NCBI GenBank assembly: GCA_963681505.1
Contig: OY811971.1
Location: 22,160,962 to 22,224,961 of the forward strand
Direction: 5' to 3'
From: Eunapius fragilis
Taxonomy: Eukaryota > Porifera > Demospongiae > Spongillida > Spongillidae
DNA length: 64,000 nucleotides
The stretch's first letter is position 1, and each line of letters starts with the position of its first letter. The translations under genes and the position numbers were made by a program. The notes beneath the pieces are model-generated. The model ran no database searches and was not told where the DNA came from. It worked only from the letters and a program-made list of their open reading frames with translations. Positions 4,451 through 50,145 of the stretch are shown one piece after another.

Positions 4451-4935
4451 ATACTAGCCTACAATTTACACCCTATAAGGTTAGTTCTCTGCAATACATG
4501 TACATAACAGTCGACTTTGTCAACACTGCCCATGTACAGTTCTAAAGAAACCTTGCCGTCGTGTAACAGACATTGCCATTGTCGAAATCGAAAGCCCATG
4601 TCATATGCAGTAGGGTACACGCCAACATTCAAATCGCACACAGGGGACATTTCCTTATGGGCTTGAATGCAATTTGAGTGTGCAGCCAATCAGAACATGA
4701 AGGGAGACCAGTTGTAGTGCCTGTTTTAAACTAATGTATAATTACAAAACTGCAATTCAAAAAATTTCCAAAGACACAATGAACAACATCGTATGTACAC
4801 ACAGTACACCGGGAGGGGTCCAGGTTTGTACAAGACTAAAATCTGTCTTTATTGTTCAAACCTTTCATCAGCAGCTTCCTGAAGGTTGCTGACAAACTGT
4901 TGGCCAACCGCTGAACCTTCCTGGTACAGGACACA
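4451..4935 (-). repeat. Duplicated 3' end of GH31 gene, copy 1
   Basis: About 480 bp that recur in the same orientation at 49091-49530, at roughly 90 percent identity by eye. On the minus strand the right end is the last coding exon of a GH31 enzyme, and the rest reads as its 3' untranslated region plus downstream sequence. Confidence 0.85.
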
Positions 4936-7801: not shown

Positions 7802-8190
7802 AGAAACCCAAGTGCATTAAACTTTTAATGACCAATATCAATATTCAACTTATCAGGATAGAGTCACAATGCACATGTTAGTACACTTCTAGTAGGGATG
7901 AGAATTTCATTGTTGCACCATTTCTCATTTGAACTATAGGGGATGGCTGATGTAAAAGGTCTATATTGATGGGGAGGGTATATGAAATAGCACATACATA
8001 GACACTTCAACTTAACTTGTCAATGGCTAGCGATGTCATAGGCTAATTCTTTATGCACTGTGCAAAGGCGACTTGGCATCAGAGACAATTGGCATGATAG
8101 TCAGCTTTCAGGTAACCTTTAAGTTCAACTGCCATTCTGACAGCCACAAGAGGGATAGTGAGATTATGACATGGTGGTTGTAAGGATTTC
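7802..8190. other. Gene-free stretch
   Basis: There is no coding signal or repeat that I recognise between the TG tract and the minisatellite array. Confidence 0.5.
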
Positions 8191-8196
8191 CTTTGG

Positions 8197-9356
8197 GTGT
8201 GGTCTAGAATGTAAGAGTGTGAGGGGTTAAGCAACTTAGGCAACAGCATACACCCTCTGGGTGTGGTCTAAAATGTAAGAGTGTGAGGGGTTAAGCAGCT
8301 TGGCGGAAATAATAAGCCCTTTGGGTGTGGTCTAGAATGTAAGAGTGTGAGGGGTTAAGCAACTTAGACAGCAAAATACACCCGCTGGATGTGGTCAAGA
8401 ATGTAAGAGTGTGAGGGGTTAAGCAACTTAGACGACAACATACACACTCTGGATGTGGTCTAGAATGTATAAGTGTGGGGGGTTAAGCAGCTTAGACGAC
8501 AAAATACACCCTCTTAATGTGGTCTAAAATGTAAGAGTGTGAGGGGTTAAGCTGCTTTGCGACACAATCAGCCCTTTGGTTGTGGTCTAGAATGTAAGAG
8601 TGTGAAGGGTTAAGCAACTTAGACGAAAACATACACCCTCTGGGTGTGGTCTAGAATGTAAGAGTGTGGGGGTTAAGCAGCTTAGACGAAAACATACACC
8701 CTCTGGATGTGGTCTAGAATGTAAGAGTGTGGGGGGTTAAGCAGCTTGGCGGACATAATAAGCCCTCTGGGTGTGGTCTAGAATGTAAGTGTGTGAGGGG
8801 TTAAGCAGCTTAGACGACAACATACACCCTCTTGATGTGGTCTAAAATGTAAGAGTGTGAGGGTTAAGCAGCTTTGCGACATATTAAGCCCTCTGGGTGT
8901 GGTCTAGAATGTAAGAGTGTGAGGGGTTAAGCAACTTAGATGAAAACATACACCCTCTGAGTGTGGTCTAGAATGTAAGAGTGTGGGGGGTTAAGCAGCT
9001 TAGGCGACAACATACACACTCTGGATGTGGTCTAGAATGTAAGAGTGTGGGGGGTTAAGCAGCTTAGACGACAACATACACACTCTGGATGTGGTCTAGA
9101 ATGTAAGAGTGTGGGGGGTTAAGCAGCTTGGCGGACATAATAAGCCCTCTGGGTGTGATCTAGAATGTAAGAGTGTGAGGGGTTAAGCAGCTTAGATGAC
9201 AACATACACCCTCTGGGTGTGGTCTAGAATGTAAGAGTGTGAGGGGTTAAGCAGCTTAGATGACAACATAAACCCTCTTAATGTGGTCTAAAATGTAAGA
9301 GTGTGAGGGGTTAAGCTGCTTTGCGACACAATAAGTTCTTTGGTTGTGGTCTAGAA
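8197..9356 (-). repeat. 64-65-bp minisatellite array (right, inverted relative to 1-735)
   Basis: About 18 tandem units built on GTGGTCTAGAATGTAAGAGT followed by GTGAGGGGTTAAGCAGCTT. The reverse complement of this core matches the unit of the array at 1-735. Two spacer types alternate irregularly: one reads AGACGACAACATACACCCTC, the other GGCGGACATAATAAGCCCTC. The second type is the closer match to the left array (its complement has GGGCTTA and GCCAAG). Confidence 0.95.
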
Positions 9357-9988
9357 TGTCCCAGTCAATTTTCATCAATCTCTCCGTTCTGGTCGCGTGC
9401 ATCATAGAGATATGCTTGATACTAATTGCATATTGACAGACGTAATGAAATTGATACTTTTAAAAATTATAACAGAAAATAAGATAAACGGTGTATTCCA
9501 CATAAGATATACACATTATGTGTACTGTACGTATAACACCCGCAATCAAAATCTTGTCGCACACTTACCGCAACAACGTGTGCACGTGTGTATAAGTGTT
9601 ATACTTGTTATAGGCTTGTAATACACTTATTGTATACCAGCCATATACGTTTTGGTGTATAACTCTGCGTATACAGTACAAATGCACCAAGTGTATTAGT
9701 TGTACAACTGCCTTTTTCCATAGTGTTAGTGGTAAGATTGTGGACTTCTTTTCCTTAAGAGTCGCCATGATTATACGAGATTATTATAATCAATTAATCG
9801 CGATTAAAAGTTTAATATAGAGCGATTAGGCGATTACGGTCAATTACGTAATCGCGGCAATACTGGACAGGCTTATTATCACACAATTTTTTCTCTCTGC
9901 ACGTTGCGCGCATTCGAGTATTATTACAACTATGTACATGTAAATATATGTACTTAAATGACCTTTAAATATTGGCATATAGTGCAGC
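9357..9988. other. Gene-free, AT-rich
   Basis: It contains several GTATAAC/GTTATAC motifs in both directions (9500-9680) resembling the repeats at 33490-33720. No gene is supported. Confidence 0.4.
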
Positions 9989-32008: not shown

Positions 32009-32523
32009 ATGTTGAAGATTGAAGCGCTAGCTAAAGTGTTCACTTATACCTCATAGTTGTCGTAACTTGTGACCGGTTACCACGCGTTATATGATACCTT
32101 TGCCAGCGATGCGCCCGATACCTATAAGGTAAGTCAATAGGAACACACACAACGTGGATTGCGCGAACGATTGAATATCAAATATATTGTCGAGTGACCT
32201 TCACGTGCTATTGCATAATAAGTGTAACCTACTACACTCCTCCCCCCTTGTCGAAACTACCGTTTTTGTTTTTGTTTTTACAGCCTTTTAGGAGGGTGAG
32301 ACGTGCGACTTGACCTTCTGAGGTTACTGCGATTGTCAACTTCCCGTTGTGCTTGTGCCTGAGGAATTGTGGTTGTTGTGTTGGTGTTGAGTTCAGGTTC
32401 AGGTTCAGGTGTATCCTCTTGTTCTGGGTCAGCTGACTGCCTTTTCCTTATGTGGTCTATATTTCGACGCAGAATAAAACCATGGCCAACAAATGGCCAA
32501 CCGGTTTGACAGTGTTGAAGCAC
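32009..32523 (-). mobile_element. Gypsy-type LTR element, 3' fragment (fossil)
   Basis: The minus-strand frame ending at 32278 has the usual pol tail: GHGFILRRNIDHIRKR, then a spacer and RRSSRTSHPPKRL. Downstream lies a purine tract, and then a segment of about 228 bp starting TGTAGTAGG and ending AACA that fits a 3' LTR. Only this 3' end is present; it stops abruptly at about 32523 against the plus-strand Gypsy. The element is broken. Confidence 0.55.
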
Positions 32524-32630
32524 AACTCAGTGTCGCAAAGGAGGAAACAGTACCACAGGACACAAGGAAGGGACGTTTTTCTGGACAGAGACCCACATCA
32601 CAAGGCTGCTATAGGTGTGGTCAGTATGGA

Positions 32631-32713
32631 TGTTCCGTACGGATGCCCAGCAATTGACCGGTTATGCAACCGGACAACCGGATACACAACCGGACAACCG
32701 GATACACAACCGG
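32631..32713. repeat. Left terminal and subterminal repeats of the Ginger element
   Basis: After the terminal repeat come three near-palindromic units such as CCGGTTATGCAACCGG and ACCGGATACACAACCGG. The series resumes at 39068-39090 beyond the inner insertion. They resemble multiple transposase binding sites; this role is inferred. Confidence 0.75.
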
Positions 32714-32954
32714 CACTGTGCAAAAAACCTAGTATACGCTAGCGTATATTTTTGCGTATATTTCGCGTATACCATCAATATACCAAGGGTAGTGTATATT
32801 TCGAATATCCACCTGGTATATTTCAAGAACCTAGGTGACAATTATTCATTGTGCGTATTCTCGAAATATCACGCATACGCACACCGCAATGAATTATGCA
32901 ACGCATTCAAATCTAAATAACTTACATGTATAACTTTGATATGAATAATTTGAA

Positions 32955-33035
32955 CCGCAGTATGCCTGCTATGTGAATTCGAACGTAGAGCATTATGGAC
33001 GTTTACCACTTGAACTATAAGCGTCGGTACGTATG
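32955..33035 (-). repeat. tRNA-like remnant (possible SINE head)
   Basis: On the minus strand, TATAGTTCAAGTGGTAAACG resembles a tRNA D-arm/A box and GTTCGAATTC a B box about 30 bases further on. The anticodon stem does not pair well and the 3' part is too short, so this is not a working tRNA gene. Confidence 0.3.
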
Positions 33036-33489
33036 TACAATATTAATGATGCATGGCATGGCTTAACAGGTGGGTAAGATAAGTGAGGAGGACAGGAATG
33101 GGGGTGTGTATGCCAGGGTTATGTGTTATCGCATGCGTCACTGTTGACCAGTGGGTACTTTAGGCAACACTAGCTAAGTTAACGAATGCGTAATTGTATG
33201 CTGTATACCAGTGGGTCAATGTGTCTACAGGATGGTAGGAAGCATGGGAGGCCATGTTTGACCGGGGTCAATCTTTGTAACCAGGTAGCCCAGCAGGGTG
33301 GTGAATTGGCCGCCCATGCAACCATATATATGCAGCTCATCATTTATATCAGCCATTGTGGTCAAGATCCCCAGTGATCTAGAGTTGCAGAGGTTAGCTG
33401 ATATGGTTCCTGACAAATAGGCCAACAGTATGATCACCACTGAAATAGCAGTGAAATAGCAGTGACACCTTGTGGTCTTGGCACTTGCA

Positions 33490-33725
33490 CTGTGTAAAAA
33501 GGGGTGTTATACTCGCCTGTATAACATTGTTATACAAGTAGTTATACAGCATTTGTTATACACATTGCATATAGTTGTGTATAACTGTGTATAATGGTAG
33601 TATGTACCAATTAAAAAAACCGCAGTGTAAAAAGGGTTGTTATACTCGCCTGTATATCCGCCTGTATATCATTGTTATACAAGTAACTGTTATACACATT
33701 GTGTATAACTGTATACATGTGATGC
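33490..33725 (+). repeat. Two tandem copies of a GTTATAC-rich unit
   Basis: Two adjacent copies begin (G)TGTAAAAAGGGGTGTTATAC and GTGTAAAAAGGGTTGTTATA, each followed by CTCGCCTGTATA and several GTTATAC/GTATAAC words. The first starts CACTGTGTAAAAA, close to the end of the host 6.35-kb element. Confidence 0.6.
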
Positions 33726-34229
33726 TAATTTTATACCGCATCATAGCGAGGGCGTAATTCGTTGTTAATTGAGCTATTGGCCATTAATAATGGGCCATTA
33801 AATTTAAATTTAAAAAGAAAGATGGCTATACGTGTTCCGAAGTGTCAAATAAAGAAATCGCGGAAGGAAAGCGTATATCTGGTTGGTCGGAGTTCTGGCT
33901 AAAATTTATGTATACACATACTTGCTTAGTTTATGAATTACGCACATTTGAATTTGATTCGTCTACCGGTACTTGTATACAGTTTCAGTGATGATATGTG
34001 TGAAGCCAAAAAGCCCCAAGTTGTGTAGACGTCGCGTTGGATGGAGTGACCACTGAAAGGTAAGCCAATGTAGTTTTGTAATATTTCTGGGTTGTACCAT
34101 GTATATAAATAATTTATGGTTGTCATACATACTATTATAATCAAATTTTAAAAGTCACCTTTTGAAATGGGCTGATTGTAACTGTGGCAACCAGCTCAGT
34201 ATGCGCGCCCAGGGTCAGGCTACATGCTG

Positions 34230-34420
34230 CTTATGTGTGTGATTGTGTGTGTGTTGTGTGTGTGTGTGTGTGTATACATGTGTATGTAATAGTAACATGT
34301 ATGATATGTGTGTGCATTTGGTACATGTGTGTGCGTGTGTGTTTGTTGTGTGCATGTATGCGCATACATGTGTATGTGAGCATGTATATGTGTACATGTT
34401 CAACGTGTGTATATTCACTG
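34230..34420. repeat. TG-rich low-complexity tract
   Basis: Imperfect TG/CATGTATG repeats. Cysteine- and valine-rich frames across it are not genes. Confidence 0.8.
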
Positions 34421-34584
34421 ATTCAATGTTCCTGTTACATTGGTCATGATGTAATCTGTGCATCAAGCATGCAGGATCGGTGCTCTGGGTACATTGCATG
34501 TATATGTGTGTTCTGAGTTATTGGTGAGACAAGCGTATGCCGTTTGCAGTCTGATGCACATGAACAATGGCCTCCTTGATAATA

Positions 34585-35832
34585 ATGTGCTCACCTCATG
34601 CTGTCATGTGCTCACCTTATGCTGTCTCATGTGCTCACCTCGTGCTGTCATCAATCCTCATGCTGTCATCATGTGCTAACCTCATGCTGTCATGTGCTCA
34701 CCTCATGCTGTCGTCATGTGCTCACCTCATGCTGTCATGTGCTCATCTCATGCTGTCATGTGCTCACCTCATGCTGTCATAATGTGCTCATCTCATGCTG
34801 TCATGTGCTCTCCTCATGCTGACATCATGTGCTCTCCTCATGCTGTCATCATGTGCTCACCTCATGCTGACATAATGTGCTCACCTCATGCTGTCATGTG
34901 CTCACCTCATGCTGTCATGTGCTCACCTCATGCTGTCATCATGTGCTAACCTCATGCTGACATCATGTGCTCATCTCATGCTGTCATGTGCTCACCTCAT
35001 GCTGTCATAATGTGCTCACCTCATGCTGTCATGTGCTCACCTCATGCTGACATCATGTGCTCACCTCATGCTGTCATGTGCTCACCTCATGCTGACATGA
35101 TGTGCTCACCTCATGCTGTCATGTGCTCACCTCATGCTGACTCATGTGCTCACCTCATGCTGTCATCATGTGCTAACCTCATGCTGTCATGTGCTCACCT
35201 CATGTTGTCATCATGTGCTCATCTCATGCTGTCATCATGTGCTAACCTCATGCTGTCATGTGCTCACCTCATACTGTCATTATGTGCTAACCTCATGCTG
35301 TCATGTGCTCACCTCATACTGTCATCATGTGCTAACCTCATGCTGTCATCATGTGCTAACCTCATGCTGCCATCATGTGCTCACCTCATGCTGACATGTG
35401 CTACCCTCATGTTGTCATCATGTGCTAACCTCATGCTGTCATGTGCTCACCTCATACTGTCATCATGTGCTAACCTCATGCTGTCATCATGTGCTAACCT
35501 CATGCTGTCATCATGTGCTCACCTCATGCTGTCATGTGCTCACCTCATGCTGTCATCATGTGCTCACCTCATGTTGTTATCATGTGCTCACCTCATGCTG
35601 ACATGTGCTACCCTCATGCTGTCATCATGTGCTAACCTCATGCTGTCATGTGCTCACCTCATACTGTCATCATGTGCTAACCTCATGCTGTCATCATGTG
35701 CTCACCTCATACTGTCATCATGTGCTCACCTCATGTTGTTATCATGTGCTAACCTCATGCTGTCATGTGCTCACCTCATACTGTCATGTGCTCACCTCAT
35801 ACTGTCATGTGTTCACCTCATACTGTCATCAG
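34585..35832 (+). repeat. 1.25-kb minisatellite of 21- and 24-bp units
   Basis: More than 50 copies of CTCATGCTGTCATGTGCTCAC-like units. Short (21 bp) and long (24 bp, with an extra ATC) forms alternate irregularly. Both lengths are multiples of three, so long reading frames appear on the plus strand in more than one register. They have no biased coding signature. Confidence 0.95.
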
Positions 35833-35939
35833 GTGCCTGATGAAGATGGTTTGGTATTTAATGCTAGCATTCCTACTTACCCTAATCACCTAATAATGTC
35901 TACTAAACCACATCACATGATCTTAACACTCACCTTGCA

Positions 35940-35998
35940 TGCACACACATGCGCACACACATACACACATACACACATACACACACATACACATACTT
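35940..35998. repeat. (CA)n-rich tract
   Basis: ACACACATACACAC-type repeats. The sequence from 36000 to 36960 holds no recognised gene. Confidence 0.85.
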
Positions 35999-36974
35999 GA
36001 AGAAGTTGCCAAGGGGTAATACACTCACACAGTTGGTGCTTTGCCACACCCCATGATGAGGCTACCATGATGCATGTGGGCACTCCTGCCAAAGGGGAGG
36101 GTTGGTGGACTAACTGTGGGCTGTTAGCACTGAAGTTTGATTGCTTTGGTGTAACTCTTAAGTTTTTATAGTTCACTGTGTGATGTTTAGTCAGTGCCAA
36201 ATAGACCCAGGCAGCAATATGTTTTGGTGCCTAGCTGTGTAGGGCTTTCATTGTTCTGTGAACATTCTTACATGTAGTGGTTGTATTGAAGGACCTTTTG
36301 GGAGGATATTGGCATGTGTGCAGCTACATACATAGGGTACGCATGTGTGTGTATCTGTGTCTGCATGTCACTAGGAGAAGAAAGCACAATTCTGTCAAGA
36401 TGTGTGTATGCATGTGTCTGCATTTTATACCAGTATGTGCATGTGCATCCACATATGTTTACAATTGTCTGTACGTGCTTATATCTGTGTGAGTAGGTGA
36501 AGATGCTAAGAATGTGGTTTGAAAGAGGCGAATGTGATTTTGGAGCATTCAAAATGAAAATGTTTAGCTAGAGGCTTGGCGCTTGGAGGTGGCACCAGTA
36601 TTACTGCCATTTAGTAGCTGAGTGCACTAAGAATCTATCCTTCTCAATAGTCTTCATCCAAATTGTATGTATGGTATGTTTGCATGGTGTGATATCTTTA
36701 AATGATATATTTTCACCCTGATAGGATCAAGCCTTACATCAATTGAATGAAACTGAAAGATCTGATGTGAACTTACATTTGTTGTATTGTTACATCTTTA
36801 CATGTACATGTTGTGTACTATTCTATCTCCACTTGTGAGACTAGCTGGGTGTAACCGAACGTTTCCATACATGTACATGTCATGTTAATGTACATACATA
36901 GAAGTCTTACAAAGGGGTGTGGCCATATATTACTATATAGCAATGACACAGTACACTTTTTCTATGTCTAATAC

Positions 36975-37700
36975 GGTCATGTGATCAGATGGAATCAGGA
37001 TAGCGGCCAGACCTGGTGTGCATCAGATTGAATCTTTTTTATGAAATCAGGGTATCCTGATTCTATTTGATGCACATTGTTCTGGTCGCTACCATGTTTC
37101 TATTTGATGCTCACTAGGATCTGGTTGATACCACAATCCTATCAGCTGCACACCAGAGAATGGCCAATAGCTTTATTTGATGCACACCAGGTCTGGCCGC
37201 TAATATGATTCTGTCTGATGCACACTACCATGACCCTCACATTAGGAATTGCCACGTACTAGCATATCAAGTAATGCGAGCAGCAGTCCCTGGTGTGCAT
37301 CATATAGAATCATGTTAGCAGCCAGACCTGGTGTGTATCAAATGGAATCATATTAACTCGTCTGCATCAAGTAAAGACACGCTAGTGGCCAGTCGCTGTT
37401 GTACATCTGGTAGGTTTGTGATATCGATCAGACCCTGGTGTGCATCAAATAGAATCATGTTAGCAAACTGACCCAGTTTGCATCAAATTGAATCATTAAA
37501 TTCTAGTAGTGGCCAATCCCTGGTGTGCATCTAATAGAATCTTGGTAGCGACCAGACCTGGTGGGCTTCAAATAGAATCAGGATAGCGGCCAGACTTGGG
37601 TTTGCTTATTTGCATCAAATAAAGTGGCAGTCCCTGGTGTGCATCTAATAGAGTCATGTTCGTAGGTGTGCATCAAATAGAGGCCAGACCAGGTATTGTA
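36975..37700. repeat. Degenerate tandem repeat, TGGTGTGCATCAAATAGAATC type
   Basis: At least ten imperfect, irregularly spaced copies of a unit with CCAGACCTGGTGTGCATCA and AATAGAATCATG, in both direct and partly inverted form. It is an old, diverged minisatellite. Confidence 0.8.
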
Positions 37701-37739
37701 ATACAGTCTTGTGTACATCAAATAAGTCATTTCTAAGTT

Positions 37740-38860
37740 GCTTTTGAAACCCCACTCTGAGCAGAACAAATACAGTGTGTACGAGGCTTCTTGTCAAATG
37801 AATGTAACGCGCATGCGTAGACTCTTCAAAGCCGCATGCATATATGGCGTCATCGTCGGGAAATCTACTGCAACTATAACCGTACGTTCCTATCATCCAG
37901 AAGAAATATCTTAGGTGGGTCTTCAAGTAAATTGAGGGACTAGTGGCTAATTCCCAAGTCTCTCCTCTAACAGGTCCCCGAGAAACGATGAAGTCATGTC
38001 GTCACAGCAGAACCTACATGTATATCGATACTAGTACGATGATGACGAAGAAGACTGCGCCAAACCCTAGGTCCTAGGCAGCATGGCGATGCTGTTTGCA
38101 CAGTCCGTTACACTACTGCAGGAGGTTGCGAAACTACAGATCCAAAACTGTCTCAAAGCGATGCTGTAAGACCAACTCGAGGGAAAAGGACATCACTTTC
38201 TGTACAGGTACAGTAACGTTATATCGGCTTTTTTTTCCTACTGAGGAGAATCCAGCTGAAGTCTCGAAGCGTAAGCAGTGATCATCACCTTTTTTTTCTC
38301 GATCAAATTTAGACACGTCATAAAAACTAGCAAAGGCAGAGCGGGTAAGAGATTGCGTTTTCGACAAATTATACGAAGAGCGGAGATAGAGAAGTAGCGG
38401 ATTGCTTTGGAATATAAGGTAATGGCTTCGTTTGTTTAACCCTGTATATTCCCTGCAGCTAGACAAGGAAACTTCAGATTCAGCTGAGCTTGTCAAGCAA
38501 TCCCGCCGTCAGTGTAGGCCTCTGTTTGCATTTGTATCGTATGGATGCTCTATTTTGCTGTAGCTATATGGACTATGGTGACAGTACAGGGAAGCAGTTT
38601 GAAGCCTACGCTCAACTACTGCCGCGCGTTTCGTTAGAAGAGGTTGCAATGGATTTCTGAGCAACTCGTGGCAACGGCGGGTTGGAGGGCCACTACTGGA
38701 GTATCTCCTTCCTGGATGGCTGGAGAGCTTGAACATTGTCTATTGATTGTATTGCTTTATTTAATATTGATAATAATTTTAATACTAATCAAGCCAGTAT
38801 ACAACGAACATAATCGGGTGGCGTACCCAATACAGTATACGGTCAACGTAGGTACAGTGT
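37740..38860. other. Unassigned region inside the 6.35-kb element
   Basis: Short frames with plausible splice sites (for example an ATG at 38082 followed by AMLFAQSVTLLQEVAKL) occur, but I recognise no domain. If the element has its own gene, this is the only place left for it. Confidence 0.3.
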
Positions 38861-39155
38861 AGTATCCGGAGACATTAATTAGAGAATCCTCCATAAGCGC
38901 ACGTGATACATTTGAGGATACTCGAAATATACGCAGTGCGAAATTGGTTCTATACGCAAAATATACCAGTGGGATATTTCGCGTATACGCACGCGTATAT
39001 TCATGCGTATACTCGAAATATACGCAAAATATACAATAGCGTATATCCTATTTTTTGCACAGTGCGGACGACCGGTTATGCAACCGGATGGTGACTTGCG
39101 CATGCTCATACACTAACAAGGTGTCACATTCTCTTATCCACGTGTTACGCGCCCG

Positions 39156-42100
39156 ATGGATGCGTTCGAAGAATACCTTTTTGCTGCTTTTCCAAAAGAC
39201 GCTAAGAGAACAAGAAGTGCCGTAATTCACCAACAGACTACAGTTCGGAGAACGGATCATCCACTTTTTAAAGAATCCTCTATCGATTGAGGATAGAAAG
39301 TTTCATCATCTTATTAAAAGAAGTGGATTTCAACTGCTGGACTTGCCTGAAGCTGGAATAAGGGATGCATTGGTTGTCCAAGTCAAGGAGGAAAAGGAGG
39401 TAATTCGTTCTGTGTTAGTATTCATTTTTCTGTAGTTGATTACTGGCCGGTTTGTTGGTATATAGAACGTTAATGACCGCACGATCATGAAAGGCTATAG
39501 AAGGGTCGTTATAGTGGAGGAATTCTACCAAATTTTGAAACAGATCCATGATAAAAATTGTCTGCATGCTGGTTCAAGAAAAACCTATGCTAGGGTAAGT
39601 AGCAATTTAAGTACGTTACGGCACATGTACAGGCTAAATTGAGTCATGTATATGTCACTCCTTATACACTTTAGGTCCAGTCATTGTACTCATACATACC
39701 AAGAGTTGTGGTTGAAAAGTATGTAAGCTTGTGTTCAACATGCAGCTTAAGGAAACCACAGCACACTAAAGCCCCTTCAAGACCAATCATAGCTGATGGG
39801 CTATACTCTCGTATCCAGGTAGGTTTAATCACTATTCATGCTTACTAACACGTACAAAAGATTTATACATATCTGTAGATCGATCTGATTGATATGAGGC
39901 ATATGCCACATAATGGATGCAACTGGATATTACACATCGTGGATCATTGGTCAAAGTTTAATTTTGCATTTCCTCTTGCTAAAAAGAAGGCAAACCATGT
40001 GGTTAAAGCATTGCACAACTATGTTTTCCCAGTGTTTGGCTTGCCTGCTATCATTCACAGTGATAATGGCAAAGAATTTGTAAACAAACTCTTTGAAGAT
40101 GTAGTTTCTACATGGCCAGGTCATGTGCAGTTAATCAGTGGTCGTCCGCGACATCCCCAATCCCAAGGATTAGTTGAACAAGCACACTACACACTTGAGA
40201 GAATGATCAGTGCCAAAGTTGTTGAATGTGGCGATCAATCCCCACCATGGTCTCAATGGCTTCCACATATTGTGTGTAAGTGATCCAATGTTTTTCGATG
40301 TTGCAAATGTTATTATGTTTTATGTCATTGCAGATACAATGAACACTCAGGTTCATGACACCACCAAGCAAACCCCGTACGAGTTAGTATTTGGCCAACC
40401 TCCAAGGGCAATTTTTGTTCCAGATGTCACCTTTCGGGGACAGCTTGATGAAGATGTTTTGAAACCTTGTGACAGAGATAAATCAGAGGAAGGGACGAAA
40501 GACAAAGAACAGGATTATGAAGGAAATGAAGAGGAGGATGAGGAAACAGAAAAGGATGAAGAGGAGAAAGAAAAGGAGGATGTTGAAAACGAAGAGGAGC
40601 ATGATGAAAACGGAGTGCATGAGGAGGAGAAAGAAGATGAGGATGAGGAAAAAGAAGATGAGGAAAAAGAAGAGGAGGAAAAGAAAGTTGAGGATAAAGA
40701 AGATGAGGAAAAAGAAGATGAGGATGAGGTAAAAGAAGAGGATGAGAAAAAAGAAGAGGATGATGAGAAAATAGCAAAGGACAGTGGGGATGTAGACAAG
40801 GATGATGGAGAGGAAGAAGATGAGGACAATTTAGTGGAAAAGGAAATGGAAGGTACTTATGTGGGCACTGTTGCAAGGGAGATAGAAAGCAATTTTGAGG
40901 AGAGAAACAAAACCACTGCTGCAAGCGTTTTTTCTGTCTACCAGTACTCTGTTGATTCAGAAAAATGTGATGGTCATGACAGTGATCGTGATGAAAATGG
41001 TAACAACAAAGTACAAGTAAGTGCCTCAATAAATGTTTAGATCCTGATTAATCTTTCTGGTTCCTTTCGATGTATAGGTGGCTTTAATGAAATCCAATTC
41101 AAGGGTTTTGGCTACTACTGAGAAGCACTTGCCTGTTCTCCAGATTGCAGACAAAGAATACTTGAAAAATGCTAATAGGATGATGGTAAAATACAACCTT
41201 AAGCACAAAGTTAAAGAAATTCATGTGGGAGATTGTGCTACTGTGAGAATTCCTCGCATTGATCGGGCTTCCACTGACCCAAATAGACTGCCGTGCATAA
41301 TTGTACAGGTGATTGGAACGGCATGTGCAATGTACCGCTTGCGGTGCAAGTCAGGAGTGTTGAATAAATGCCACTCTGCTTGTGACCTGGAATTTTTTGA
41401 AGGGACTTTCTGTCTATCTGTGAAAGGATGGGAAAATTCTATTCGTGTGTCACTTCGAGCAGCTTCAAACGAAAGTACACCGTGGAGTGCATTTTCAAGA
41501 ATATGTGCAAGTGCACAGCAGGCTGCAGCACACAATGGTGCCCTTGCAAGAAGAATAAAATTGAATGCACCTCACACTGCCATAAAGGGGATAACTGCAA
41601 AAACAAGAATTGTACACCTGCATCAGCTATGAAATTATCACCACCATCTTCTAGCAACAAAACTCCTTTCTTGGATACCCAAGCATCATTGTCATGTGCA
41701 TGCAAAACGAGATGCAACAGTGCAAAGTATTGCTGCTGCAAAAATAACAAATCATCCTGCTCTGCTCGTTGTCACCCAGGACATTCTTGCACTAATGGTG
41801 ATCACACAAAACCCTTGTGCAAGATAGATTTAACAGCAGAATTGAGTGGAGATGATGAAGACACCTGGGTTACTATCTGTACTGTTCAACTGACAACGTA
41901 CCACAAGGCAATACATACATCTCCAAAAAGCTGGCTAGATGATCTTATAATCACCGCTGCACAATATATGCTGAAACAGCAGCACCCATCCATAGATGGC
42001 TTTCAACCACCTGCACTTAGCCAGAATTTTTCCCTGATTCCACCACAGGAGCAGTTTGTGCAGATCATAAATGTGAATAAAAATCATTGGATTGCTCTAT

Positions 42101-42603
42101 CCACTGTTGGTTGCCAAAAAACCAGCATCAAACTCTTTGACTGCAATGGAGATAAAGAGCTTCCCAAGCCTACCCTGAAGCTTATGAGTGGCCTACTTCA
42201 AACACAAGAAAGCCAATTTTCAGTTAAGTTTGTAGATGTTCAACTGCAGGAAAGATCACATGACTGTGGATTATTTGCTCTGGCGTATATCACTTCCATT
42301 TGTAATGGACAAGATCCAGCAGTTCTATTGTATAAACAGAATGCAATGAGGAAGCATATTTTGAAAAGTATTGAGGACGGAGTGATGACTGCCTTCCCAA
42401 CTTCTGCAAGTAGACTTCCTAAGGCATCTATCAGGAAGAGCATACCAGTATACTGTATTTGCCGGCATATTAATGATGGCTCAAAAATGATTAAATGTGA
42501 TGTTTGCCAGCTGTGGTTCCATGCAGCCTGCATGAAGATCGACAAAAGTGTACACAAAGATCGCAATTTTATGTGGAACTGCCCTTCGTGCAGTACAGTA
42601 TAA
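39156..42603 (+). CDS. Ginger transposase: integrase, acidic region, CXC clusters, Ulp1 protease, PHD finger
   Basis: Six exons with GT-AG borders: about 39156-39399, 39466-39594, 39675-39818, 39879-40275, 40334-41016, 41078-42603. The N-terminal part resembles KRBA2-like proteins. An H2C2 zinc site (H...H...CSTC) spans exons 2-3. The integrase core follows with IDLIDM, HSDNGKEF and a Q-G-L-V-E-Q segment (D, D, E). Then come an E/K-rich acidic region (40470-40860), a C-terminal integrase part (VGDCATVRIPRI) and cysteine clusters CKCTAGCSTQWCPCKKN and CACKTRCNSAKYCCCKNN. A Ulp1/C48 protease shows NHWIAL (H), FDCNGD (D) and QERSHDCGLFA (Q, C). A PHD finger, CICRH...CDVCQLWFHAAC...WNCPSC, ends the protein at TAA 42601-42603. 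About two small frame disruptions are apparent, so the gene looks nearly whole. Confidence 0.8.
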
Positions 42604-42889
42604 ACTGATTATCACTATTTGTAACAGTCTTAGTACATGTATATTAATATTTCTACTGCATTGTGCTGTGTACTGGTCAGTTGTAAGCCTCATGTCAGCA
42701 TTATACAACATCATCAGTTATTTTTTGTACTAGTGTCCATAAACATATATTGTCATCTTCTCAGTATGACAAAACATCTTAAATGTGCAAATAGTCTCAT
42801 CCATACAGATGGCCGGTTGTATCAGGCCTTACCAACCAAAACAACCTGAGTTGTGCATAGATAATTATTCATATAATTATAAAGATATT

Positions 42890-43165
42890 AAAAAACGGAC
42901 AGCCAGTTACACAACGGGACAGCCGGTTACACAACCGGACAGCCGGTTGCACAACCGGACAGCCGGTTACGCAACGGGACAGCCGGTTGCACAACGGGAC
43001 AGCCGGTTACGCAACGGGACAGCCGGTTGCACAACGGGACAGCCGGTTACGCTACGGGACAGCCGGTTGTGTAACCGGACAGCTATTATAAAATGCATTG
43101 AAACGGGACAGCCGGTTACATAACCGGACAGCCGGTTACACAACCGGCATCCGGTTACGTAACCG
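42890..43165. repeat. Right subterminal 20-bp array of the Ginger element
   Basis: About 12 units of GGACAGCCGGTTACACAAC type. The CCGGTT and AACCGG or AACGGG blocks make most units near-palindromes, and the last units convert to the CCGGTTACGTAACCGG form that joins the terminal repeat. Confidence 0.9.
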
Positions 43166-45337
43166 GCAATGTTGGGCATCCGTACGGAACATGGACATGG
43201 GAAGCAGGACTGCCCATTATCACGTAAGTGTTACCAATGTGGGGAGGTTGGGCATTTTAAGAAGGAGTGTCCGTTAAAAGGGAAAGGCCCCTCAGTGGGT
43301 GGACAGAAGGTGGCCAAGACAGAACTAAACCACCACATGGTGTATGTGTGTAGTCTCAAATCTAAAAGTACAAGGATATTTGGCAGGAAAACCTGTCTGT
43401 TTTCTTGTGGACTCAGGGGCAGCAATTTCAGTAGTGAGTAGTGAGTTGCTGTCTGGGTCACAGCTACAAATGGCTACTAGGACTTCTGTAGGGCTGAAAG
43501 CAATCGGTGCAAATGGTTTGTGTCCAAATTAGGCTTTCGATGACTGTAGAAAGTGTAGAAAGTGAACATGAAAGTGTAGAAAGTGAACATGATTTCCTGG
43601 TTGCAAGTAATTTACCGGTAGAGTGTATTCTTGGCATGGATTTTCTTACCAAATACCATGCTGTAATAGATTGTGGGGAGAGGGCACTCAGGCTAACTGG
43701 AGCTGATCACAAATTGTCAACACAAACCAGTGATGTAAAGGAGTCTGGCATGGGCAGTTACATTACCTAAGACTTATAACATCCCCGGTCGGTGTGTAAT
43801 GTTTGTGTCTGGGTCAGTTCAAAACCAGGGTAGTACAATAAAGGGGTTAGTGGAACAGATATCCATAATAGCATTATGGTTGCTAGAGGTTTGTGCTGTA
43901 CTCAGTCAGATGGTGCTGTGGTGCTCCAGATGGTAAACATAGGCCCAGAGACAGTGACCCTCTACAAAAGGAACTAGAGTAGCGGTGTTCTCACCCCAGA
44001 ACCATGTTATGGTGCTGGGTGAGGAGGGTGGTGTTAAAGCTGGAGGCAGTCATACTGACAGCAACGGGCCTGTACCTGTTGACCTTTCAGACTTATCAGG
44101 GGGAGTAGAAAACCAGACTTGGGAATTTGCTGGAACACTTCAGGGATCTTTTCATTTCAGATGACCAGGCACTGGGTAAAACAGCCATGGTTACCCATAA
44201 AATCAAGAGAATGGGGCATCCTATTCAGCAGCCACTGAGGCGATCACCAGAAAGTTTGAAGACAGTGGTCCAGCAAGAACTCAAGTCCATGCAACCTAAG
44301 GGTGTTATTCGACCAAGCTGCAGTCCCTGGGCTTCCCCAATGGTTCTGATAAGGAAGAAGGATGGTAAATGGATTTTTTGCGTGGACTATAGGAAATTGA
44401 ATAGTGTAACTGAAAGAGATGCATACGGTAACCCTTTACCTAGGGTAGATGCGACACTGCATTCCCTGGCTGGCTCAAAGCTGTTCACAACACTAGATTT
44501 AGCTTCAGGATATTGGCAAGTGGAGGTGTTGGAGGAGGATAAACCCAAGACCCCGCCTTCCCAACTCCTTACTGGTTGTTTGAATTTAATGTTATGCCAT
44601 TTGGGCTGACGAATGCACCTGCAACTTTCCAACGTCTGATGCAGTGTGTGTTGGCTGGTCTTTCTCCTGAAAAGTGCCTTAGATATTATTGTTTTCAGTC
44701 ACGTTTGAACAGCATCTGACCTGTTTACGTGCTGTTTTGGAAAGGATTGCAAAGGCTGGTCTTAGGCTAAAAACCACAAAATGTCAGTTTGCCCAACGCC
44801 AAGTGAAGTATCTAGGTCATGTGATATCATAGCAGAGAATTGAGCCAGACCTTCAGAAAGCCCAAGCTGTAAAGAACTTCCCCAGGCCACTCCAACCAAT
44901 GCAACTATGGTTAAACAATTCTTGGCTTGTCAAACTACTACCGTCGATTTATACAAAAGTATGCCATTGTGGCAGAACCTCTGTACAAACTTACCAGGCA
45001 GGCAATGCATGGGTATCCAGTGGTCAGAGATGTGCCAGAATGCTTTAGATACACTGATAAACAAGCTTGTATCAGCACCCATTTTAGCCTACCCCGATTT
45101 TGACAAACCTTTCATGCTGTACACGGATGCTTCTGATAATGCTATTGGTGGGGTACTGGGGCAAAGCATGTGAATGGGGAAAAGATGATCGCTTACTGGA
45201 GCCAGCAGCTGCATAAGGCGGAGAGGCAATATTCAACAGTAGAAAAAGAGGCTCTAGCAGCTGTGAGCGCAGTGAAGGAGTTCAATCCATACTTGTATGG
45301 GTTTCCCTTTACCTTGATTACTGATTATAATCCACTT

Positions 45338-48300
45338 TGATGGGTCATGGCTGTGTTTTAGACCTCCAACAGAAGATTATGTTCACAGAGCAAGGACCTG
45401 TACATTTTGTGTCATCTGTATGTATTGAACATAATACCCCTGTATGCTTTGTTGCACTGAGTGAAAAGGTAACGGTTCCACCAAACAGTCAAATGTGTTT
45501 GCCTGTAAAGATGACGGGACCTAAGTCTGCAGCTGGGGTGCTAGTAGTGGAACCATGTGAAGAGTTTGTGCACGCATATGGTCTTCTTGTTGCTCATTCT
45601 ATCACAGATGCAGTTGCCAACCACACAATGGTCCAGGTGATGAACCCATGTTTTGCACCTGTCACTGTACATGAAAACGTGAGGGTAGGTATGTTGCACT
45701 CTATTGTTGATTGTGCTAAGATACAGCCTGCACGCAAGCAGTCTAGACCTAAACAGGCCATCAAGGATACTATTGGTCAGATGACTTCCAGTCTGGCGCC
45801 GGGTGTCCAGGAGAGCGTGGCTGCACTTTTGTGGATATACCAAGACGTCATCGCCTTAAATGATAATGATCTAGGTTGTACCCAACTGCTGGGCCATCGC
45901 ATCGACACGTCAGATGCACTTGCTCGACGACTACCATTCCATCAACAGGGAGAAGTGCGTGGGTTAATTGATGACATGTTGTCCGGGGAATTATTGAGCC
46001 ATGTTGTGGGCCATGGGCATCGCCTATCGTATTAGTAAAGAAGAAAGACGGTAGCACTAGATTTTGTGTCGATTTCCGCTGGGTTAATGACCTTACGCGC
46101 AAAGATGCACAACCGCTTCCTAGGATAGACGATACGTTGGATGCCTTGGGAGGAGCCTATTACTTTTCAACTTTAGACTTGGCCAGTGGCTATTGGCAAG
46201 TTGAGGTGGACAGTCGGGACAGGGAAAAGACGGGGTTTGCGACACCGTTTGGGCTTTTTCAATTTCGCGTGATGCCGTTTGGGTTGTGCAATGCGCCAGC
46301 AACCTTCCAGCGGCTCATGGAACAAGTTCTAGCTGGTCTGCACTGGACTACGTGTCTCGTCTATCTTGATGATATCATCATTTTTAGTAAGTCGATTGAA
46401 CAGCACTTAGCGCAGCTTAGTGACGTGTTCGCACGTTTGAAAGGGGCGGGGTTGAAGATCAGGCCTAAAAAGTGCCGATTGCTACAGACTAGTGTGCAGT
46501 ACCTCGGTCACATAATTTCAGGTGAAGGTGTTAGGACTGATCCAGCAAAAATATCATGTGTAGCCAACTGGCCCATTCCAAGGAATAAGACTGACCTTCA
46601 ACGTTTCCTTGGTTTTGCGTCATACTACAGACGTTTTGTAAGGAGTTTTGCTTAATTGGCGTCCCCTCTGCATGCCTTGACTCAGAAAGGTGCACAGTGG
46701 GTATGGATTGAAGGGTGTAATAATGCATTTTTTGAGCTAAAAAAACTACTCATGTTATCACCAATACTTGCTTTACCTGACTTCAGTTTGGATTTTGTTT
46801 TAGACACAGATGCCAGTGGGGATGGTCTGGTGCTGTGCTTTCTCAGATGACTAATGGAGAAGAACGGGTACTGGCATACGCCAGCAGGGCGTTAAGCAGG
46901 TTAGAAAGGAAGTATTGTGCCACAAGACGGGGATGCTTGCTTTGGTGTGGGCTGCTCGTCATTTCCGGCCCTACCTCTATGGGAAGAAGTTTGTTCTCCG
47001 AACAGACCATCATTCTCTGCAATGGCTACACAAGTTCAAGGAGCCGGAGGGGCAAGTTGCCCGCTGGTTGGAAGTACTATCTGAGTTTGACTACAAAGTG
47101 GTGCACCGTGCAGGTAAGCGACACACAAATGCTGATGCATTATCACGTGGCAGGTGCAGCCAGTGTGGACTGGAGGAGGAGGAAGAGGATAAAATCTTAC
47201 CCTGTGATGCTGTATGACACCTCATGTTACCAGCTTGGACTGAAGAGGAGATTAAGGCTCAACAGAGTTCTGACCCTGACCTACATCAGATGATCAGCTG
47301 GCTGGAGATGAATACCTTCCCGGACAAATGCCCTAGAGGTGTGTCTCGGAAACTATATTCCCTATGGGTGCAGAGAAGGTATCTCACTTTGAGAGATGGG
47401 GTTTTGCATCGCATATGGGAGGATGTACCAGGTGGTGGGGTGGGTAGACACCTCCAACTTGTACTCCCAGCCAATTTGGTTAAGAATGTATTAGAAGGTC
47501 TGCATAGTACTCTGGTGGGTGGACACATGGGGGCAGCAAAAACATTAGAAAAAGTGCGTGCCCGATTTTACTGGCCAGGTCAAAGAAATGATGTGGACAT
47601 GTGGTGTAGGACATGTGCCATCTGTAATTCGCGTAAGGCACCTCCAGGGAGAGCCAGGGCCCCTCTGGAAATCAGCTTAGCTCAAAGGCCCCTACAGCGA
47701 GTTGCAATGGATATCCTGGGTCCACTACCTGAAACACCAAGGGGTAACCGCTACATCCTGGTGATTGGTGATTATTTCACCAAATGGAAGGAGGCATTTC
47801 CTTTGAAGGACACAGAGGCACTGACTATAGCGAGGGTTTTTGATAATGAGTTTGTGTGTAGGTTTGGTGTCCCAGATTCCGTCCATACAGACCAGGGGAA
47901 GAACTTTGAAGCTAAGATCATAAAGGAAATATGCACATTGCTGGACATCAAGAAGACACGCACCACTGCATACCACCCTCAGTTGGATGGCCTTGTGGAG
48001 AGGTTCAACAGAACCTTACTTGGTATGTTGAGCATGGCGGTGAAGGAGGATGAACAGGGGTGGGACCTTCTCCTCCCAACTCTGTTGCTAGCCTACAGGA
48101 CTAGTCATCATGCCACAACCGGATCCACACCATTTGAATTGATGTTTGGTCGTGACCCTCGTCTTCCTGAAGATGTGTTGTTCTCTATTCCAGGTGCAGT
48201 TGAAGATCCCTCACAATATGCTGAGGTACTGAAGAATAGGATGCAGCAAGCTTGTGCACGAGTCCTGAAATACAGCAGCATCGACAGAAAGAGTATTATG

Positions 48301-48592
48301 ATAAAGGAGTGAGAGGGAAGACATATGCGGTTAATGACTTTGTATTTCTCCACAATCAAGCAGTTGGTCGAGGATACTCCAAAAAGTTCCACAAGCCATG
48401 GCAAGGGCCATTCAAGGTTGTGGAAGTTTTAGGGCCAACTGTGTACAGAATAGCAGAATGTGCTAACCCCAGAAGGCAGAAGGTGGTGCATTTTAACTGG
48501 CTAAAGCCTGCCCCAGCAGAGGCTGAATCACAACCACCACCTGAGGTTATCCTATGGCCATGCTCGTTCCCCTTCCAAAAATAATGAGCGGG
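45338..48592 (+). mobile_element. Gypsy-type LTR element B (fossil): pol region
   Basis: A second, distinct Gypsy pol begins here in the protease-RT linker. Parts in order: reverse transcriptase (46050-46650, catalytic YLDD at about 46368), RNase H (46660-47200), integrase with HHCC zinc site and D-D-E core (47224-48310), and an integrase C-terminal region ending near 48585. No LTR was found on either side. The element is broken by about four or five disruptions, but long frames survive, so it is probably younger than element A. Confidence 0.8.
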
Positions 48593-49091: not shown

Positions 49092-49530
49092 ACCCTATAA
49101 GGTTAGCTCTCTGCAATACATGTACATAACAGTTGACTTTGTCAACACTGCCCATGGGCAGTTCTAAAGAAACCTTGCCGTCGTGTAACAGACATTGCCA
49201 TTGTCGAAATCGGTAGCCCATGTCATGCAGCAGGGTACACGCCAACATTCAAATCGCACATAGGGGTCATTTCCTTATGGGCTTGAATGCAACTTGAGTG
49301 TGCAGCCAATCAGAACATGAAGGGAGACCAGTAGTAGTGCCTGATATAAACTAATGTATAATTACAAAAAATTTCCAAAGACACAATGAGCAAGTTGAGC
49401 AACACATGTACACACAGTACACCGGGAGAGGTCCAGGTGTTTACAAGACTACAAACTGTCTTTATGGTTCAAAACTTTCATCAGCAGCTTCCTAGCCTGA
49501 AGGTTGCTGACAAACTGTTGGCCAACCGCT
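49091..49530 (-). repeat. Duplicated 3' end of GH31 gene, copy 2
   Basis: It matches 4451-4935 in the same orientation. On the minus strand it keeps GSAVGQQFVSNLQ, but a 5-bp insertion (within CTTCCTAGCCTGAAGG) breaks the frame before the stop codon. The left border coincides exactly with the end of the foldback element. Confidence 0.85.
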
Positions 49531-50145
49531 GAACCTTCCCGAATCCAACCTCAAAACATCAGCCCCCTCCGCAGGGTTTCAGAAAAAAAAAAAAAAAAAC
49601 GTGTGCTATTTAATACGTTGATAACGTGTGAGGATCCTTCCAAGTGTCTCTTTACCTGCTCCAGGTGTATTTAGATCCAGGAGGAAAGTCAGAGGTTGCC
49701 GCCCCCTGCCCACGCCCTGCTCCGTCATGAACACGGGGAGGCGTTGCCCCTTCATGTCCAGTAGGGTGTACTGGGTCCCGAACCCGTAGAAGCGCTCGTC
49801 CTCGCACTGGTAGGCGAGGACCAGCTGGTTGTACTCGGAGGAGGGCGAGGTGAGGGAGACCCCGAACTCCAGGTGCGTGGCCGTCTCGTTACCGTCCGAC
49901 GCGTCCGCGGCCTGGAACCAGAGCTGGAACGAATGTTCCTCGCACAGCTGTCCCGCGAAGGTTACCAAGGGTACCCTGCTGCTGGCTCCGCCCACTGGTG
50001 GTGATGTTGGCACCTTCGCAGGTCTTGACCGTATGGGACGTCACCACAAAGATGCATAGATATTAGAGTAGATGCCACCATTTTGCGTGACGTTCTGGCG
50101 CACGTAAACTGCCCCGAGGTAGCCGTTGTCCGATGCGAGCGTGGA

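Follow-up and report, generated by a model that had tools for sequence, protein, structure and literature searches.

What occupies the interval between two copies of TGGA in the genome of the freshwater sponge Eunapius fragilis, and in what order did its parts arrive? The interval lies in a 64-kb window (the whole stretch of DNA analysed here, 64,000 nucleotides), in which a first-pass annotation had described a complete and dated Ginger-type transposon with exact borders, inserted with a TGGA target duplication into the zinc-knuckle region of a Gypsy element. Our analysis makes it very likely that the locus has three layers, namely a Gypsy element, a transposon of about 4.2 kb that entered it and belongs to the Ginger superfamily, closest to Ginger2/TDD, and a CACTA-like element of 6.35 kb that entered the latter at a later time. 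The nest of three elements is real and its borders are exact. The borders, the duplications, the empty sites, the sibling copies and the domains were all observed directly; nesting yields an order of insertion alone, and no age was computed for what had been called a dated nest.

The left TGGA (32627..32630) was assigned from the flank sequence and from the empty site L121, in which TGGA stands once, and the right TGGA (43192..43195) from the flank sequence. The sequence TGTTCCGTACGGATGCCC starts at 32631 and its complement occupies 43174-43191, each occurring once in the whole 64-kb window. The terminal inverted arm is perfect over 19 bp. Over 45/43 bases the two ends share 39 identities, with 4 mismatches and 2 one-base gaps, and over 83/80 bases they share 62 identities, with 18 mismatches and 3 gaps. 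The 43-bp ends of the first-pass annotation are therefore an inverted repeat, as it had said, but one that is imperfect beyond the 19-bp arm; its inverted ends, flanking TGGA copies and internal integrase-type gene were all found where it had placed them. The interval 32631-43191 measures 10,561 bp, of which 6,351 bp are a separate inner transposon; without the latter and its 3-bp duplication, the Ginger-like element is 4,207 bp long. Its 5′ terminal part (32631..32713, forward strand), consisting of the terminal inverted repeat (TIR) and CCGGTT-type subterminal repeats, resumes at 39065 in 17/17 siblings whose homology extends to the 5′ end. The main part (39065..43191, forward strand), with the transposase gene and the 3′ end, is delimited by the sibling loci and by a 3′ border common to other copies. 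Near this border, tandem-repeat analysis revealed 12.7 copies of a 20-bp subterminal repeat (42897..43158), which are putative transposase binding sites, and 17 CCGGTT-type motifs lie within 42881-43191.

The state of the locus before the insertion can be read from empty sites, a search for which the first-pass annotation had proposed. We joined the two flanks and searched with this query in the genome of 219 Mb (24 contigs), where two places span the junction uninterrupted. One of them, C18:3300515-3300910 (GTCAGTATGGACATGGG), is 94% identical across the junction and contains a single TGGA; the other, C4:2347934-2348323, is 92% identical, its four bases having diverged to CGAA. Read from the C18 site, the point of insertion falls within the first CCHC knuckle of a Gypsy gag and divides it. 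The left part of this gag, ending in that knuckle, lies at 32486..32630 (forward strand; C18 matches from 32488 and C4 from 32486). In the right flank, the frame 43163-43438 encodes a gag zinc knuckle (zf-CCHC, E 1.2e-7), and protease, reverse transcriptase (RT) and RNase H frames come after it. In all, the remainder of the entered Gypsy, assigned by Pfam matches to 43196..45173 of the forward strand, comprises the second knuckle and broken protease, RT and RNase H pieces, with zf-CCHC, RVP_2 and RT_RNaseH_2 over the cut-off and RVT_1 at 29.5 versus 29.6 bits.

The surroundings are rich in other repeats. A repeat at 32401-32483, present at 8 other genome places, directly borders the gag piece on its left side, and the entered Gypsy is probably cut there by another element. 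On the right, a second Gypsy (45331-48581) with RT, H2C2 plus integrase core and a GPF-bearing C-terminus adjoins the broken first one; close relatives of its core elsewhere lie in frames of >1,500 aa. A 450-bp direct repeat (4470-4921 and 49092-49539; 44.6 kb apart, 89% identical) was considered as the LTRs of the entered Gypsy and rejected, and it was left out of dating because its edges are not TG...CA and other repeats lie between its copies. Arrays of 64-bp units at 1-876 and 8062-9381 are mutually inverted and about 79% alike.

Sibling copies give the borders and target sites of the Ginger-like element. The exact 18-bp end occurs 41 times in the genome, both window ends counted, and this number and the two empty sites show that the pattern is no product of chance. 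When up to 3 mismatches were allowed, 86 and 71 places were found; the reversed control gave 48 and 29, and most of the weak end matches may accordingly be due to chance. Opposite ends on one contig, no more than about 12 kb apart, were paired from the end listing together with two partners from another search, which gave 16 copies in addition to the window (17 two-ended copies). In the 16 others, homology stops at the same terminal bases and the flanks differ; a few have single-base changes or a small indel at the termini. Copies running past 32631 or 43191 would have spoken against the proposed borders, and these 16 all stop there. Together with the empty sites, they back the first-pass reading of a Ginger-type element inserted with a TGGA duplication and exact borders in a Gypsy zinc-knuckle region.

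A matching 4-bp duplication was present in nine of the 17 two-ended copies. It is TATA in six (C3, C12, C17:3015153, C21, C8 and C16:2242909, the last after allowing for an arm deletion), GATA in C6:7174929, TCCA in C5 and TGGA in the window. With their neighbouring bases, the six TATA sites all read RTATAY, the context in which Ginger2/TDD elements make their 4-bp (or 5-bp) duplications; the window (ATGGAC) and C5 (ATCCAT) keep R-T-N-N-A-Y, and C6 reads TGATAT. Among these sequences, the TGGA of the window is an atypical target. The other eight copies lack a matching duplication (e.g. TATA/TAAC and CATA/TATA), for which mutation, recombination or an incorrect pairing of ends may be responsible. 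Neither CCGG nor CCGT was found as a duplication among the 17. Separately, a segment of about 105 kb at C7:2809046-2914432 contains eight Ginger ends that all point the same way; seven of these are exact and the eighth has a mismatch, and the cluster is perhaps a result of local amplification.

The gene inside the element, read on the forward strand, begins with an H2C2 zinc-binding region in two pieces (39466..39845; Pfam Integrase_H2C2, E 7.8e-4 for profile positions 7-33 and 0.076 for 43-59, both below the cut-off), which are probably split by an intron. The integrase DDE core of the D37E type follows at 39879..40275, in a frame to 40280 (Pfam rve, E 2.6e-10, 40.9 bits versus a cut-off of 32.6); its best PDB match is foamy-virus integrase (E 1.3e-9). 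Next to it lies a putative 58-bp GTAAGT...CAG intron (40276..40333), and the protein also has an acidic repetitive stretch. At the place of GPY/F, we read from the sequence a C-terminal module (41078..41405) that contains NRLPCIIVQVIG and has no Pfam match. There is no GP[YF] motif in the module of the window, where the Gypsy, used as a control, has GPF, nor in the siblings in which the module was found by pattern (9/11 sibling loci scanned) or the relative L072. Two CXC-like cysteine repeats (41500..41840) are the next feature, the first matching Pfam TCR below the cut-off (E 0.031) and the second without a match. A Ulp1-like protease and a PHD finger (41824..42600) were recognised over the Pfam cut-offs (Peptidase_C48, E 1.9e-5, 25.1 versus 20.7 bits; PHD, E 7.2e-8). 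Among solved structures in the PDB, the PHD finger is closest to those of PHF2 and PHF8, and the motifs NHW, FD and HDCG are presumably the H, D and C of the Ulp1 triad. RT frames were seen only outside 32631-43191, the inside having been checked as frames that were scanned in part.

In the siblings L053 and L004, one frame covers both the C-terminal module and the cysteine repeats, but in the window these lie in two frames; the window's first coding piece is also out of step with the siblings L052 and L055. The window copy is therefore most likely an inactive relic. The description as a complete transposon has to be amended: the interior contains the 6,351-bp CACTA-like insertion, and the reading frames of the window copy are broken.

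With an integrase-like DDE core, TIRs and no RT seen inside, the element belongs to the Ginger superfamily. The available text of Bao et al. 2010 (PMC2836005) describes Ginger1 elements as 2.6-7 kb long, with CCGG or CCGT duplications, GPY/F, YPYY, OTU or Ulp1 and, in some, PHD, and lists Ulp1 together with PHD for Ginger1-9_HM; Ginger2 elements have 4-bp duplications at RTATAY and are without GPY/F or YPYY, and TGTNR termini are common to both. Measured against that account, our element resembles Ginger2/TDD in its integrase-type DDE core, its 4-bp duplications, its RTATAY target, the absence of GPY/F, its TIR of tens of bases and its size, which is in the listed range. It differs in its Ulp1, PHD and CXC-like domains, unlisted for Ginger2 in that text, and in its ends: the termini TGT...ACA are present, but the 5′ end, both here and in most copies among the matches listed, reads TGTTC, which falls outside TGTNR. 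With Ginger1 as described there it shares the integrase core, Ulp1 or PHD, introns (putative here) and the 2.6-7 kb size, but neither the CCGG/CCGT duplications nor GPY/F. Its H2C2 pieces, below the cut-off, are a candidate for the zinc finger of Ginger1, and by eye no YPYY string was noticed ahead of that region.

The element could instead be a Ginger1 that shifted its target preference from CCGG to TATA and no longer has its GPY/F motif, as the pairing of C-terminal Ulp1 and PHD known from Ginger1-9_HM (PMC2836005, available text) would suggest. We consider this unlikely in view of the 17 two-ended copies, which offer no CCGG or CCGT, the RTATAY context in 6/9 of those with matching duplications, and the missing GPY/F. 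Ginger1 identity on the C-terminal domains alone was rejected, and the element was not filed there despite these domains, because its target sites and the lack of GPY/F disagree. By its sequence features, it is best classified as a Ginger2/TDD-like element, a new member with a mixed architecture. Among the matches listed in a literature search to which Repbase was external, only PMC2836005 combines Ginger2 and Ulp1 in one paper, and in its available text Ulp1 is a property of Ginger1. For autonomous elements in Repbase, PMC10045372 counts 23 Ginger1 and 30 Ginger2 entries. Sesarmid nimaviruses with a Ginger2-like integrase gene insert in AT/TA repeats, according to the available text of PMC10871703. 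They resemble our element in the intron-containing gene, the inverted ends and the AT/TA targets; unlike it, their Ginger2-like genes sit in large viral genomes. Our search for relatives in viral contigs gave seven stretches that matched a pattern, none of them confirmed, and phage records gave no match.

The Ulp1-PHD partner is not peculiar to this copy. We compared 79 of 150 core matches with 86 of 156 Ulp1-PHD matches, and 20/79 distant cores were followed on the same strand by a Ulp1-PHD match no more than 5 kb downstream, versus 0.11 on average for random positions under a rough model; in L079, core and Ulp1-PHD occur in one locus. Ulp1-PHD is therefore standing equipment in several families of this genome. 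To place the core itself, a tree was built from 12 Ginger-type cores and 6 Gypsy cores, all from the same genome. The two groups split at 100/100, with support on the Ginger side weak in places; as no published Ginger protein is among its rows, the tree excludes only the 6 Gypsy rows. Grouping with Gypsy integrases, which the first-pass annotation had named as evidence against its reading, was thus not observed for those six. A Gypsy integrase captured by an otherwise non-autonomous inverted-repeat element might explain the 32% identity over 105 residues between the Ginger-like and Gypsy cores of the window, but we give this idea almost no credence, given that the core clusters at 100/100 with further non-Gypsy families from its own genome, that its D-to-E spacing is 37 versus 35 in the window Gypsy, and that so many distant cores have the Ulp1-PHD partner. 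A further Gypsy-type integrase match, at C4:5162737-5163147, lies in an open frame reported at 6,499 aa, far longer than those of its relatives.

The inner element (32714..39064) is a 6,351-bp, high-copy, CACTA/EnSpm-like sequence that was defined by its copies, arms and duplications; it has CACTG...CAGTG ends and a CGG duplication and sits 83 bp inside the Ginger-like 5′ end. CACTA/EnSpm DNA transposons have CACTG...CAGTG ends, 3-bp duplications and imperfect terminal inverted arms. The inner element likewise has CACTR ends, 3-bp duplications and imperfect arms (about 32714-32823 and 38959-39064, 80% inverted identity); unlike them, it has no recognised transposase frame, its frames having been scanned in part. 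Outside the frames of a minisatellite (34585-35836, from tandem-array analysis) no frame exceeds 124 aa, and the 124-aa frame, the only one scanned, has no Pfam match. Genome searches gave 367 first-look candidates for the left end and 414 for the right. Among the matches listed for the left end, all 39 from outside the window start between query bases 82 and 88 (window 32708-32714) and are 93-99% identical, and the 3-bp duplications match in 17/17 other copies examined at both ends. We also compared the 29 non-window core loci L052-L080 with the window. In all 17 that extend to the Ginger-like 5′ end the inner element is absent, homology passing from about 32713 straight to 39065, and the 29 loci match it only in short simple-repeat tracts, which occur in three of them and are never longer than 126 bases. 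A reading of the full 10.56 kb as a single, exceptionally long Ginger element, as the single pair of ends and single duplication bounding it might suggest, is refuted by these sibling loci and by the inner element's own ends, 3-bp duplication and many copies, and we regard it as practically ruled out.

These features suggest how the nest could have been built. The integrase-like transposase would bind the CCGGTT-type subterminal repeats and attach the TGT...ACA termini to the two target strands with a 4-bp stagger, at sites similar to RTATAY (ATGGAC in this case); the target duplication would then arise through host repair. At the transposition complex, the Ulp1 domain may act on proteins of repair or chromatin by removing their SUMO, and the PHD finger, which resembles those of PHF2/PHF8, may read histone H3 tails and direct the insertion. 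The CACTA-like element landed later, 83 bp inside the Ginger-like 5′ end.

Apart from its mix of features, which is only mildly unusual, the element is unremarkable for a genome so rich in repeats, and at this locus the order of the three insertions is clear and has been verified in several ways. We tentatively propose, as a suggestion that could well prove wrong, that a lineage of the Ginger2/TDD type, with TATA targets and without GPY/F, carries a standing CXC-Ulp1-PHD cassette previously credited to Ginger1, and that the cassette would then be older than the Ginger1/Ginger2 split or have been transferred between the two. The published split, with Ulp1 and PHD on the side of Ginger1 and AT-rich targets on the side of Ginger2, may not be tenable; this matters for the question of how transposases of the integrase type acquired their chromatin-reader and SUMO-protease partners.
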